From Chryseomicrobium sp. FSL W7-1435 (GTDB lineage Bacteria > Bacillota > Bacilli > Bacillales_A > Planococcaceae): a stretch of 64,000 nt of DNA. Shown piece after piece: positions 5,851 to 62,827 of this stretch. Made by a program: the position numbers and the translations under genes. How positions within the stretch are numbered: the stretch's first letter is position 1; every line of letters begins with the position of its first letter. Below the pieces are notes generated by a model. It was not told where the DNA came from and did not search any database. It saw nothing but the letters and a program-made list of their open reading frames with translations. The stretch spans positions 2,294,001 to 2,358,000 of the forward strand of contig NZ_CP151997.1 of the NCBI RefSeq assembly GCF_038595005.1. Direction: 5' to 3'.

Positions 5851-6188
5851 CAGAGCATTTATACCATGTTAAGATAGTAAAGTTAAATGGTTAGACTATT
5901 GAGTTGAATCTGGCATTCTGCTCATGTTTTTTATGATGCTTATTCATACTGGCGCGGCTATAGGGCTGCAATGACGAAAAAGTAGGTAGGGTTTTCGTTG
6001 CTTAAGTTAGAAGACACCAGTAGAAGAAATTCCGCGGCAAAGTGAAGATTTCTTATATACATTCAATTTAATCGTTTTACCATACTAGAGGGACATGTCA
6101 AATTGACATGTCCCTCGTCTAATTTATTGCGTAATTTGTGCTCCCCTGCTATTGTAAATTTTATAGTTTGATGAAAAAGGTGAACACC
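5851..6188. other. Intergenic block without a convincing gene
   Basis: 338 nt between the aspartokinase stop and the YihY-type start. It holds a small stem ACGAAAA...TTTTCGT (about 5972-5996) around AGTAGGTAGGG and a GC-rich patch near 5950-5970. The perfect inverted repeat 6088-6116 is listed separately. A 16-codon frame starting ATGTTTTTTATGATG near 5926 has no ribosome site. I cannot match the block to a known RNA class. Confidence 0.5.
6088..6116. terminator. Perfect 14-bp inverted repeat, probable terminator
   Basis: GAGGGACATGTCAA, one A, then TTGACATGTCCCTC: perfect arms with a 1-nt centre, followed by GTCTAATTT. No gene ends immediately before it, so it may instead be a protein-binding palindrome upstream of the YihY-type gene. 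Confidence 0.55.
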
Positions 6189-9705: not shown

Positions 9706-9907
9706 TAGATGTGGAGGACGTCACTCTAGAAACTCCGAGAAAATCAGGCGTGCCAAGTGAGGCGCTCTTGGCCTCGGTTGGTGCGACTGATTTTGGAGCG
9801 TGTTTCTGACGTTCGCAACTCGATTCCACGTAGATGTGGAGGACGTCACTCTAGAAACTCCGAGAAAATCAGTAGATTCGCTGGAATTCAGAGAACCTAC
9901 TGATTTT
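9706..9907. repeat. Two copies of a 42-bp direct repeat, each opening an AAAATCAG...CTGATTTT hairpin
   Basis: The 42 bases at 9706-9747 recur exactly at 9831-9872 (start TAGATGTGGAGGACG, end GAGAAAATCAG). After copy 1 the closing arm CTGATTTT is at 9787-9794, and outer parts also pair (GTCA...AGAAAC with GTTTCTGAC near 9802-9810). After copy 2 the hairpin closes at 9900-9907 as AGAGAACCTACTGATTTT. The block follows the metallopeptidase stop directly and belongs to the dispersed hairpin family seen at 10.9, 12.1 and 16.8 kb. Confidence 0.85.
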
Positions 9908-20510: not shown

Positions 20511-21920
20511 TTAAGTCCCGCAATAGGTAACGAAATCTCGCCCTGTTTCAGGTGGGCGTTGATCAAAATCAAGTTGAGCCGGTGAATACGTATAGGGCTT
20601 TTCTAGATGCTCTAGTAGAGTGATGACTTTTTCCATCGAGCCTGTTTCCGCTTCGTCAAGTGCTTGCTGGACGAGATGATTTCTGGGAATTATGACCGGA
20701 TTGGATGCTTCCATCATGTGTTGGTGCTGCGACGTTCTTGTTCCCATACTTTGTTCAAAGCGTTCCAACCAGCTTTGCACTTCGGTATGACCGAAGAAAT
20801 CATGAGAATAATCTTGTAGTGTGAGTGCTCGGAATGTATCAGTGTAATCTGCTTTGTGTGTTTGCATTAGCTGCAAAAAGTCCGATGCAAGTTTTGTATT
20901 TTCAGTAGTTTGGGTTAAGCCAAACTTTCGGCAAAGTCCTTCATTGTACGCTTGTTCGAATAATTTTGGATAGCTATCGAGAATAGCTTGAGCTCGTTCG
21001 ACTGCTTGTTCCTGGTTATCACTAAGTAACGGAAGTAAGCTTTCTGCAAAACGCGCTAGATTCCAGCCGGCAATCCCAGGTTGGTTTCCATACGCATAGC
21101 GACCTTGTTGATCGATTGAGCTAAAGACTGTAGCCGGGTCATAGTTGTCTAAAAATGCACACGGCCCGTAATCAATCGTTTCCCCACTAAGTGCCATGTT
21201 GTCAGTGTTCATCACACCATGGACAAACCCAATGAGCTGCCACTGTGCAATGAGTGTCGCCTGTCTTTGAATCACTTCCTGTAACAGCGACTCATAAGGT
21301 TTTTCGTTTTCCGGAATAAAGAGGTGTTCAATTGTGTAATCTGCCAACGCACGAAGCTCTTCTATGCTTCCAAACTGCGCAGCATATTGAAACGTCCCTA
21401 CACGAATATGGCTTTTGGCAATACGCGTCAATACCGCTCCAGGTTTCACGGTTTCCCGTTGAATACCTTCACCAGAGTAGATGACTGCAAGACTTCGGGT
21501 CGTCGGAATCCCTAGATGATGCATGGCTTCACTTATGATATATTCCCGTAGCATCGGTCCAAGGGCTGCCCGACCGTCCCCACCTCGAGAAAACGGTGTT
21601 CTCCCTGATCCTTTTAACTGGATATCATATGTCGAATCGTTTTTTGCTTTTAGTTCCCCTAATAAAATAGCCCGACCATCGCCTAACATCGTGAAGTTAG
21701 CAAATTGATGACCGGCATAGGCTTGTGCGATTGGCTGGCTGCTCTCAAACGTCTCGTTGCCGGCTAGGAACTTTGTGTAATTTGTCGGTGTATCAGAAAA
21801 ACCGAGCTCTTCAGCTACGGACTCGTTCCAGATAATAAGTTGCGGTTCTGCAACAGGTGTGGGAAGAATTTCTTTATAGAATGTAGCGGGAAGTGTTAAA
21901 TAGCTTTGTGTAAAGTGCAT
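20511..21920 (-). CDS. selO: SelO/YdiU-family protein adenylyltransferase
   Basis: 469 residues of the SelO pseudokinase family, which transfers AMP to Ser, Thr or Tyr of target proteins. Visible family marks are AYAGHQFANFTMLGDGRAILLGE, KGSGRTPFSRGGDGRAALGPM, HGVMNTDNMALSGETIDYGPCAFLD and the C-terminal YCGT, whose Cys matches the place of selenocysteine in animal SelO. AAGGAAG precedes the ATG. First gene of a two-gene unit with the SDR. Targets in redox homeostasis are known from E. coli, not for this organism. Confidence 0.95.
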   Translation of the reverse strand: MHFTQSYLTLPATFYKEILPTPVAEPQLIIWNESVAEELGFSDTPTNYTKFLAGNETFESSQPIAQAYAGHQFANFTMLGDGRAILLGELKAKNDSTYDIQLKGSGRTPFSRGGDGRAALGPMLREYIISEAMHHLGIPTTRSLAVIYSGEGIQRETVKPGAVLTRIAKSHIRVGTFQYAAQFGSIEELRALADYTIEHLFIPENEKPYESLLQEVIQRQATLIAQWQLIGFVHGVMNTDNMALSGETIDYGPCAFLDNYDPATVFSSIDQQGRYAYGNQPGIAGWNLARFAESLLPLLSDNQEQAVERAQAILDSYPKLFEQAYNEGLCRKFGLTQTTENTKLASDFLQLMQTHKADYTDTFRALTLQDYSHDFFGHTEVQSWLERFEQSMGTRTSQHQHMMEASNPVIIPRNHLVQQALDEAETGSMEKVITLLEHLEKPYTYSPAQLDFDQRPPETGRDFVTYCGT

Positions 21921-21986
21921 TAAGAATCTTCCTTTCGTGTTAAAACATTGTACAAACAGTATACGATTTAGGGGAGAGAAATACGA

Positions 21987-22182
21987 ATTATGCGACTTCT
22001 TAGTTTTTGATGTGGAATGCTTCAGGAAACAAGCAGACTTTGTGCCCCTAACATGCTACTTTGTGACTCGAGCGAGCTATTTTGTGCCCCTTAAACTCCG
22101 CTTTGTGCCCCCAGTAATTTTATGGAAACTAATTCTATGGCATAATTCTTGGGATATAAAAATTCCTATTATGCGACTTCTT
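21987..22182. repeat. 21-bp tandem array A, bounded by 15-bp direct repeats
   Basis: Between the divergent selO and ytoQ genes, four units of exactly 21 bp (22033-22053, 22054-22074, 22075-22095, 22096-22116) share YTTTGTGCCCC or YTTTGTGACTC and run into TTTTATGGAAACTAATTC (22119-22136). The whole is flanked by identical ATTATGCGACTTCTT at 21987-22001 and 22168-22182, like a target-site duplication. The frames open across it show only 7-residue periodicity and no ribosome site, so I treat it as non-coding. Confidence 0.85.
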
Positions 22183-22235
22183 TTCACTATTTAGTTAGAC
22201 TAAAGAAGACAAGAACTGAAGGAGGAGTTGGAGAA

Positions 22236-22676
22236 ATGGAACTTATAGTGTATTTAGCGGGACAGATTCATGACGATTGGCGTGATGAAGTAAAAACGAA
22301 AGCACAGGAGAGAAACCTTGCTATCACGTTTGTTTCTCCTCAAACGAATCATGCCCGATCAGATGCTGTTGGGGAAGATATTTTAGGTAAGCAGCCAAGC
22401 GCCTATTATAAAGACGATGCCGCTTCGAGTATTAACAATTTGCGGACTCAAGTCCTGATGAACAAAGCAGATGTTTGTATCGCATTATTTGGCGAATCCT
22501 ATAAACAGTGGAATACAGCAATGGATGCCACTTTGGCTATTTCGCTAGGCAAGCCTACAATCATAGTTCGTCCTGAATCATTGATCCACCCTCTCAAAGA
22601 AATATCGAATAAAGCCAATGTAACAGTAGAAACAGTCGACCAAGCTGTCGAAGTACTTGCGTATATTTTTGAATAA
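22236..22676 (+). CDS. ytoQ: YtoQ-family protein
   Basis: 146 residues starting MELIVYLAGQIHDDWR and containing NKADVCIALFGE and AISLGKPTIIVRPESLIHPL. This is the conserved YtoQ family, which looks like a small nucleoside 2-deoxyribosyltransferase-like Rossmann fold; no function is established. The ATG at 22236 is 8 nt after AAGGAGGAG. An in-frame extension to 22149 would run into the repeat flank and has no ribosome site. Single gene, with array A upstream in what should be its promoter region. Confidence 0.85.
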   Translation: MELIVYLAGQIHDDWRDEVKTKAQERNLAITFVSPQTNHARSDAVGEDILGKQPSAYYKDDAASSINNLRTQVLMNKADVCIALFGESYKQWNTAMDATLAISLGKPTIIVRPESLIHPLKEISNKANVTVETVDQAVEVLAYIFE

Positions 22677-27645: not shown

Positions 27646-27829
27646 TTCGTTCACCTCATATAGAGTATTGGCTAACGGTCATTCAACGAGCTTCATGCCT
27701 TTATTCTACCCTAGTTGAAGGGGTTTAATCTAATCAGCCGAACTTGTTTTCAGGCAAGTTGTTACAAGGTTATGACGGTATGAGAATAGCTCGAAAATTA
27801 CGAACTACAGGGGGGATTTTGATAAGGAT

Positions 27830-27934
27830 TTAGTTCCGCGGGCATTGAACTAAATTCCGAGGGCATTGAACCGAGTTTCGCGGGCACTGAACCAAATTTC
27901 GCGGGCTCTGAACCGAGTTCCGAGGGCTCTGAAC
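27830..27934. repeat. 21-bp tandem array between cydA and dgkB
   Basis: Five units of exactly 21 bp (27830-27850 through 27914-27934), each ending GGGCWYTGAAC on the plus strand and starting with TTAGTTCCGC-like sequence. Read on the minus strand the last unit runs into GGAACTAAATCC, similar to the GGAAACTAATTC end of other arrays. The surrounding 27646-28001 gap holds the cydA upstream region and the dgkB terminator, and no gene. Confidence 0.85.
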
Positions 27935-27963
27935 TTGAAATTACCAGAATCGGTCATAAACAA

Positions 27964-55241: not shown

Positions 55242-55312
55242 AATCCATGAGGAGCTACGCATTTACCCATTCGTAAACACACCTTTCCTGCCGAAACATC
55301 AAAAGTCGCTTT

Positions 55313-55382
55313 CCCGCATAGTCCTGTCATTTACGGTGACATGGTAGAGACACTTAAGCCAATTCTTAAGCATATATGTGGG
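55313..55382 (-). promoter_or_regulatory. Purine riboswitch aptamer, guanine class
   Basis: On the minus strand the three-way junction core reads GTCTCTACC...CCGTAAA...GGACTATG, with P1 formed by CCCACATA (from 55382) and TATGCGGG (to 55313). The pyrimidine that pairs with the ligand is C in GACTATG, which specifies guanine or hypoxanthine rather than adenine. Together with the terminator downstream it should switch the pur operon off when guanine is ample. Confidence 0.95.
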
Positions 55383-55404
55383 AACTATTCATCAATCTAT
55401 CGCT

Positions 55405-55676: not shown

Positions 55677-55885
55677 TATACCAAAATTGCTTGAACGGTG
55701 CGTTGACTAAACGAACTCAAGATTAGTTTCCATAAAATGACTTCGGGTCTAGAAACAAGAGTACTTGCACTAGAAATGAAGTTACTTGTCTTACAAATCT
55801 TCGCTAATGACCTAGAAATCGAGTTACTTGCTCCAGAACGCTCGCTCAGCCAAAACGAACAGCGTCCTCCCCTTCTATACCAAAA
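55677..55885. repeat. 21-bp tandem array B, bounded by 10-bp direct repeats
   Basis: Five units of exactly 21 bp (55739-55759 through 55823-55843), most containing CTAGAAA and ACTTG on the plus strand. On the minus strand they lead into ATTTTATGGAAACTAATC (55738-55721). TATACCAAAA flanks the block at 55677-55686 and 55876-55885, the latter fused to the terminator of the transporter operon. Confidence 0.85.
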
Positions 55886-61881: not shown

Positions 61882-61917
61882 AAACCTCTTTCCACTTCAG
61901 TGGAGAGAGGTTTTTTT
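61882..61917 (+). terminator. Terminator of the peptide-binding protein gene
   Basis: AAACCTCTTTCCAC-TTCA-GTGGAGAGAGGTTTTTTT. Confidence 0.95.
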
Positions 61918-61946
61918 GTGCGGATCCAGGGGGTGCGACTTGGGTT

Positions 61947-62060
61947 GATTGTGACGTTAAGTTTGCTGATTGTGACGTTGATTGCGCTTATTCTGACGTT
62001 AACTCGCTCCATTATGACGTTAGCGTTCCTCACTCTTACATTGCTGATATTATGTAAACT
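61947..62060 (+). repeat. 21-bp tandem array after the binding-protein gene
   Basis: Five 21-bp units (61947-61967 through 62031-62051), four with TGACGTT and the fifth with TTACATT, lead into TTATGTAAACTATAG, a diverged form of the TTATGGAAACTAAT motif. Lies just past the strong terminator. Confidence 0.85.
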
Positions 62061-62130
62061 ATAGTTGCAGTTTTTATAGTTCAGAGTGTGTTTTAAAAAA
62101 CCAAATCTATGTTACGACGCTTATACAAAA

Positions 62131-62204
62131 GAGCAAATTAAGAACGAAGAAGACTTGGGCCTCCCTATTCGAGCGGCCCGAGCGCGATTCTTCTTAGTTT
62201 GCTC
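62131..62204. repeat. Long imperfect hairpin
   Basis: GAGCAAATTAAGAA and TTCTTAGTTTGCTC pair as outer arms, with an inner GGGCC/GGCCC pairing. About 74 nt, in the gap between the transporter and rRNA genes. No T-tract or coding sequence is associated. Confidence 0.6.
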
Positions 62205-62261
62205 TCTCACAATCGTTTCCAGCTGTATCAGGCGTGTTGAAGTGCTTCATTTTAGTTGATG

Positions 62262-62588
62262 CCCAAGCCCTTGCTAGAAAGAGCTCTTGGACACTCCAGG
62301 GCTTTCTAGGAAGGACTTTGTACTTTTCAGCACTCACAAGTCAGTGCTTATTTTAAACACGCTTGAGTGGCTGTCCAGACAGAGTAAGTCCTAGCTTTGG
62401 GTTGCACAGGGGTGATGTTGACAGAACTACGGTAGCGTTTCGATGAGTAATTGAAGAGTTTCGGCGATTATGTCGAAGGTTTTGCCGATTGTGTCGAGAG
62501 TTTCGACCTCTATTTTCTGCGTTTCACACGATGCTGCTATTATGGAAACCAATTTGTGTCAGGTCGACCCTAGAGCTGCCCAAGCCCT
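62262..62588 (+). repeat. Composite element D: hairpin plus 21-bp array
   Basis: Opens with CCCAAGCCCT and a stem CCTTGCTAGAAAG / CTTTCTAGGAAGG. After about 110 nt it continues as five 21-bp units (62434-62538) mostly built on GTTTCG and ending at TTATGGAAACCAATT (62540-62554). A second CCCAAGCCCT at 62579-62588 marks its end and the start of element E. Confidence 0.8.
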
Positions 62589-62827
62589 TGCTAGAAAGAG
62601 CTCTTGAACACTCAAGGGCTTGCTAGGAAGGGCTTTGTGATTGTCAGTACTCACAGACAACTCTGCGGTAGCGTTTCGACGACTAATTGAAGAGTTTCGG
62701 CGATAGTGTCGGGGGTTTTGTCGATTGTGTCGGGAGTTTCGCCCCCTATTTTACGCGTTTCACCCGATACTCTTGTTATGGAAACTAAATCGCCGCTCTC
62801 TACCGGAAGATTCCCAACCCAAGCCCT
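62579..62827 (+). repeat. Composite element E: near-duplicate of D with an internal deletion
   Basis: Same hairpin (CCCTTGCTAG...CTAGGAAGGG) and five 21-bp units (62670-62774) with GTTTCG cores, ending at TTATGGAAACTAAAT (62776-62790). CCCAAGCCCT recurs at 62818-62827. Compared with D, most of the stretch between hairpin and array is missing. Confidence 0.8.

Follow-up and report, generated by a model that had tools for sequence, protein, structure and literature searches.

In Chryseomicrobium sp. FSL W7-1435, the shared upstream region of selO and ytoQ carries two identical 15-mers on either side of a short array of 21-bp units, which raises the question of whether an element was inserted there with duplication of its target site. 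We analysed the window, a stretch of 64,000 nt corresponding to C1:2294001–2358000 of the 2.71-Mb genome (G000), together with three further genomes of the genus (G001, G002 and G003). Exact copies of ATTATGCGACTTCTT were detected in the window at 21987–22001 and 22168–22182 (both on the + strand), representing the left and right copies of the proposed target-site duplication, and the next best matches to this 15-mer differed at 3 positions. The initial annotation had reported the 15-mer from these two places and nowhere else, and this was borne out genome-wide: with up to 1 mismatch, they were the only 2 sites in the whole genome. With up to 2 mismatches, 12 sites were detected, compared with 14 for a reversed control pattern. 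These counts indicate that ATTATGCGACTTCTT is not a common site, so that a common regulatory site, one of the two conditions named in the annotation as contrary to its proposal, is excluded for the G000 genome. The placement in the shared upstream region was also correct, based on the ORF starts of selO at 21920 (− strand) and ytoQ at 22236 (+ strand). A 34-nt extension of the repeat (26/34 matching) was rejected, being not significant once extension is allowed (P ~0.08), and a promoter role of the 15-mer was set aside, with 2 consensus matches in 21850–22300 against a shuffle mean of 1.0.

The 166-nt insert between the two copies (22002–22167) consists of a 37-nt left piece, four 21-nt units, a cap and a 32-nt tail, all described here on the + strand. 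The four units and the cap motif agree with the earlier description, while the end pieces, given there as 31 and approximately 34 nt, were revised to 37 and 32 nt. The left module, AGTTTTTGATGTGGAATGCTTCAGGAAACAAGCAGAC (22002–22038), resembles the left end TTTAGATGTGGA of E125, an element of approximately 125 bp that starts with TTTAGATGTGGA, ends near AACTCGATT, is often found in tandem and constitutes a second dispersed family. Copies of E125 are located in the window at 9707 and 9832, and also at L086, L094, L099 and other loci; its left end also precedes many arrays. The left module is followed by four 21-bp units of type A (TTTGTGCCCC...; 22039–22119), the last of which merges into the cap motif TTATGGAAACTAATTC (22120–22135), common to arrays of several unit types. 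No further copy of the element tail (22136–22167) was found, either in the stretches fetched by then or in the genus search with 21900–22300. The 15-mer is followed by AGTTTTTGATGTGG, and TTAGTTTTTGATGTGGA matched at 16/17 positions in several G001 loci and one G002 locus, including E125-type left ends at L193 and L203. No inverted repeat of at least 12 nt was reported in 21700–22500, the RNA fold of 21987–22182 was no better than that of shuffles on either strand (z of 1.50 and 0.77), and Rfam gave no match at the selO–ytoQ locus at the gathering score. Elsewhere in the window, Rfam matches included a BsrC sRNA (5924–6011) and a purine riboswitch (55299–55399). A coding role was dropped, as the 85-aa ORF that crosses the array passes through the repeat units.

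The search with 21900–22300 over the four genomes of the genus showed that the array belongs to a dispersed family. Allowing up to 2 mismatches, we identified 49 cap sites in G000, 71 in G001, 9 in G002 and 13 in G003, compared with 2 to 5 for the reversed pattern, and a simple ORF call placed 44 of the 49 in G000 beyond any ORF of 100 aa or longer. Across the taxonomic family, 2 of 121 genomes contained exact caps, while paired type-A units were present in 7 of the 121, representing 3 of 19 genera; type-A unit pairs with 21-nt spacing were noted in two other genera at L215 (G059) and at L213 and L214 (G013 and G071). One and the same cap closes arrays of very different 21-nt units: type A (GTGCCC), type B (GACGTTA), type C (AACGACC), type D (TTCGACAT), type E (ACAAGTA), type F (GTGTCG) and others. 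According to our own motif rules, 34 of the 49 G000 caps fall into six unit types and 15 into none, and eight unit types share one cap across G000 and G001. In 381,937 bases of our own sequence, which are mostly stretches picked for caps and hence repeat-rich, we counted 31 arrays with lag 21; no other lag between 10 and 36 gave more than 2 arrays, and lag 23 gave none. Five units were found in 48 of the 62 capped arrays of at least three units (by a simple rule; G000 and part of G001), compared with four in the selO–ytoQ array. Three more 21-bp arrays, two of them alike, adjoin the 5S/23S rRNA genes at 61917–62779 of the window. A dus-like gene follows ytoQ in the window, and in G001 another type-A array directly adjoins this dus-like gene (L023; G001:C23:17015–17087). 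Beside selO of Lysinibacillus antri, we detected 21-bp arrays with the units GTCCCATAA and CGCACGTAA (L139, 2766–2868 and 5770–5900), indicating that the 21-bp design is not confined to this genus.

Flanking repeats were compared across the family. For the 49 capped G000 copies, the longest match between left and right flanks was 15 nt at the selO–ytoQ copy, 14 nt at one copy, which adjoins a duplicate array, and 6–10 nt at the other 47. Matches of at least 9 nt were found for 10 of the 49 copies, against 79 of 720 mismatched pairs. With tighter flanks and arrays of at least three units from both species, matches of at least 10 nt were found for 6 of 62 arrays, against 2.3% of mismatched pairs, several of these six being other known repeats. 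The capped-array family is thus not generally marked by direct repeats, and most copies lack one. For E125 copies, of which only 6 met the filter, direct repeats were not above background. Two long matches were not counted as duplications, namely, the 15-mer ATTCGAAGTCGAAAC around L025 of G001, which looks like an E125 right end, and a 16-mer at L029, which is part of a duplicated terminator. Our first view from the flank test of the 49 copies, that duplications are not a trait of the family, was changed by a 10-base BLAST overlap at 55.7 kb of the window.

At this position, the BLAST pieces from both G002 and G003 overlap by 10 bases. The window carries here a sister copy of the element, a 189-bp insert on the − strand (55687–55875) with a type-E array and the cap at 55720–55735, flanked by the 10-bp duplication TATACCAAAA at 55677–55686 and 55876–55885 (both on the + strand). 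In G002 and G003, a single TATACCAAAA was found and the insert is absent; in G001, the site holds an insert with the same cap and other units, one side of the duplication having decayed. A second case was detected at genome position 285,347, where a 216-bp type-A array is bracketed by the 8-bp ATTAAAAA, and G001 has one copy of ATTAAAAA and no insert, the flanks of the two genomes being identical at 611/615 positions on the left and 360/402 on the right. These pairs of filled and empty sites at 55.7 kb and 285,347 indicate that members of the capped-array family insert and can duplicate their target. The left ends by the repeats look related, with GAGTGGAATTTTCAG and GAAGGGGAGGACGC directly adjacent and GATGTGGAATGCTTCAG 7 nt inside at the selO–ytoQ copy, and the distance from repeat to array end (by our array-end rule) was 32/32 nt at the selO–ytoQ copy, compared with 33/33 nt for the copy at 55.7 kb. 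Visual inspection of the ends of the 166-, 189- and 216-bp inserts revealed no terminal inverted repeats, and the duplications differ in length (15, 10 and 8 bp, respectively).

Snippets of flanking genes were taken from 24 further array sites, and 18 of these were compared with 49 orthologous stretches, 40 of 43–55 first-look candidates per genome being scored in the orthologous-site search; left aside were L085, L090 and L095 (no match), L079 (weak match), L088 (which holds a repeat) and L103. For several of these 18 sites, the comparison was one-sided or could not be read. G000 carries array H, a 21-bp array of another unit type (GGGCACTGAAC), at 27.8 kb of the window (27810–27960); G001, G002 and G003 lack it, with no readable duplication at the filled/short junction against these three relatives. 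At 387,411, G001 is without 184 bp, the left end being kept and no duplication present, and this absence resembles a deletion. No duplication was found at the filled/short junctions at 1,192,653 (G001) and 1,362,773 (G002 and G003), and other short orthologous gaps were too diverged to be read or had hairpins of their own.

At the selO–ytoQ site, no empty allele was detected in G001, G002 or G003, and the empty site with one 15-mer that the initial annotation had proposed to look for in close relatives was not found among the four genomes of the genus. In G001, the flank is shared up to GAAATACGAATTAT and is followed by other DNA of approximately 200 bp; portions of this DNA are found again at L190, L224 and L069 (69–85% identity). 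The YtoQ match in G001 covers residues 1–50 of 146 only (G001:C24:21312–21461, L004), and no YtoQ match was found in G002 or G003. In these two genomes, the shared flank runs into ATTTTGTGATTTTTATATTTAGATGTGG, with one base different in G003, and TTTAGATGTGG is located at the corresponding place beside selO, its GATGTGG end being separated from the shared GAAATACGAATT flank by almost as many bases as in G000. This GATGTGG end may be old and common to the three genomes; alternatively, two inserts may have landed only a few bases apart in the short free stretch beside the promoter.

If the GATGTGG end is old and shared, this speaks against a fresh duplication, and a duplication that old should not be identical at 15/15 positions. 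It is conceivable that a GATGTGG end already lay beside selO in the common ancestor, that the array arrived or was exchanged later and that the right 15-mer is a copy of the left one made in a local replication or repair event rather than by transposition. The presence of TTTAGATGTGG at the same place beside selO in G002 and G003 fits such a history, as do the extra E125-like units by which G002 and G003 differ at the selO site and the differences in unit type at orthologous sites described below. However, the plain duplications and empty alleles at the two sister inserts argue against it, and an independent landing within some 25 nt of free DNA would not be very unlikely. The left 15-mer differs at several positions from its counterparts in G002 and G003, while the two 15-mers of G000 are identical, and perfect identity despite this divergence of the left copy would favour a recent event. 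Alignment scores were 10 and 11 for the orthologous sites and 9 and 10 for the sister inserts (shuffles: median 7, 95% point 9, maximum 14), and do not separate descent from paralogy. We consider local copying beside an older composite to be the main rival reading, at a rather low probability.

The 15-mer might instead be a shared binding site, with one copy serving as an operator for selO and the other for ytoQ, and its two copies lie 67–81 nt upstream of the selO start codon and 54–68 nt upstream of the ytoQ start codon; however, no third site was found in the genome with up to 1 mismatch and the selO flanks of G001–G003 do not conserve ATTATGCGACTTCTT, making this explanation highly improbable. 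Least probable of all is a chance match of two 15-mers: 64 kb were scanned, so some long matches are expected, and the window contains other 14-mers at similar spacing and the left module has a 15-nt exact match, with no evident relation, at L082, but the selO–ytoQ match brackets one element and is at least 5 nt longer than in 47 of the 48 other capped copies. For comparison, exact repeats of at least 14 nt with a spacing of 30–250 nt gave 63 rows in the 381,937 bases, many of them within repeat elements. By our own estimate, unrelated flanks of 220 and 130 nt would share a 15-nt match by chance at <1e-4 per copy.

The reading that we favour, with a probability of roughly 0.6, is that a MITE-like capped-array element was recently inserted here and duplicated 15 bp of its target. 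The 166 bp at 22002–22167 would then represent a single member of a family of short, non-coding mobile elements, composed of an E125 left end of the TTTAGATGTGGA type, usually five 21-bp units, the fixed cap and a short tail. The insertion would have occurred in this lineage, in a stretch of some 25 nt that separates the selO promoter region from the ytoQ leader and appears to be unconstrained, and the duplicated target would be seen as the 15-bp direct repeat. By analogy with the two sister copies, the selO–ytoQ copy probably arose by the same kind of event; the elements would be moved by an enzyme encoded elsewhere, and the duplication length appears to vary among copies. The inserted element with target-site duplication proposed in the initial annotation is partly supported, by the two sister copies with empty sites and a like layout, although no empty site was found at selO–ytoQ in the three other genomes.

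Among candidate mobilizing enzymes, Y1 transposase matches were detected in all four genomes, including two Y1_Tnp matches each in G000 and G001, and a reverse transcriptase gave one match in G000. None of the eight loci fetched (one Y1 locus per genome and four reverse-transcriptase loci) contained a 21-bp array. REP elements are palindromes. The capped arrays resemble REP elements with RAYT (Y1) transposases in being dispersed intergenic repeats in a genome with two Y1_Tnp matches, but the four Y1_Tnp loci fetched out of six (one per genome) showed neither a 21-bp array nor GATGTGGA. Single matches to short motifs, such as GATGTGGA at L275:937 and ACTCGATT at L268:484 and L272:2639, formed no visible element, and no parent transposon with the same ends was seen in the stretches looked at.

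As in bacterial MITEs, the elements are short (inserts of 166, 189 and 216 bp), non-coding, mostly intergenic and present in tens of copies (G000, 49 caps; G001, 71); target duplications with empty alleles were seen at two sites and not at others. Unlike in bacterial MITEs, no inverted ends were seen, no parent transposon was found in the stretches looked at and the duplications differ, at 8, 10 and 15 bp. The ends of Tn7 contain several transposase sites of about 22 bp in a row, similar to the row of 21-bp units found here, but Tn7 duplicates 5 bp and carries genes, in contrast to the duplications of 8, 10 and 15 bp and the non-coding nature of the present element. The closest description found is that of BrickBuilt, a MITE of Porphyromonas gingivalis that is short, intergenic and present in many copies. 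Its tandem repeat, built from one 23-nt unit, is preceded by a leader and followed by a tail, and its short terminal inverted repeats resemble those of the IS5 family (PMC4596501). The capped arrays share with BrickBuilt the short, intergenic, multi-copy form with a tandem repeat, but differ in the 21-nt length of their units, the lack of visible terminal inverted repeats, the eight unit types with one cap and the host; the two are similar in outline and not the same family. Among the matches listed from the PubMed Central literature, no description of capped 21-bp arrays was found, which does not prove its absence.

Finally, we compared 34 G001 array loci with the fetched G000 stretches, of which 12 gave no match, 5 were one-sided or at an edge and 3 were repeats of sites already counted. 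At the remaining 14 orthologous sites, a capped array was found in both genomes. Judged by eye, the unit type differed between the genomes at 9 of the 14 sites (for example, L189/L082 and L193/L089). It was the same at the other 5, all of type A, where some arrays had no more than one or two units. In the alignment of L189 with L082, identity was 52/58 on the left and 48/58 in the tail (gaps ignored), compared with 42/98 ungapped positions in the array. Both arrays are likely to stem from one insertion only where the flanks adjacent to the array align. The array may be an exchangeable cassette, in which the left end and the cap stay at the site and the whole set of 21-bp units is replaced by, or converted to, another type; we regard this as unlikely, and the differences in unit type are a lead rather than a proven exchange.

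If the insertion reading is true, the 15-bp repeat is the transposition footprint of an element family without a description found in the literature, which joins features of minisatellites and mobile elements, with varied target duplications and no obvious ends, and whose repeat unit differs at the same sites between sister species. The pair of filled and empty sites with the 611/615 identical flank makes mobility directly testable. Should the cassette reading be true, the different unit types might each have a matching DNA-binding partner, or recognition of the array might be the object of an arms race.
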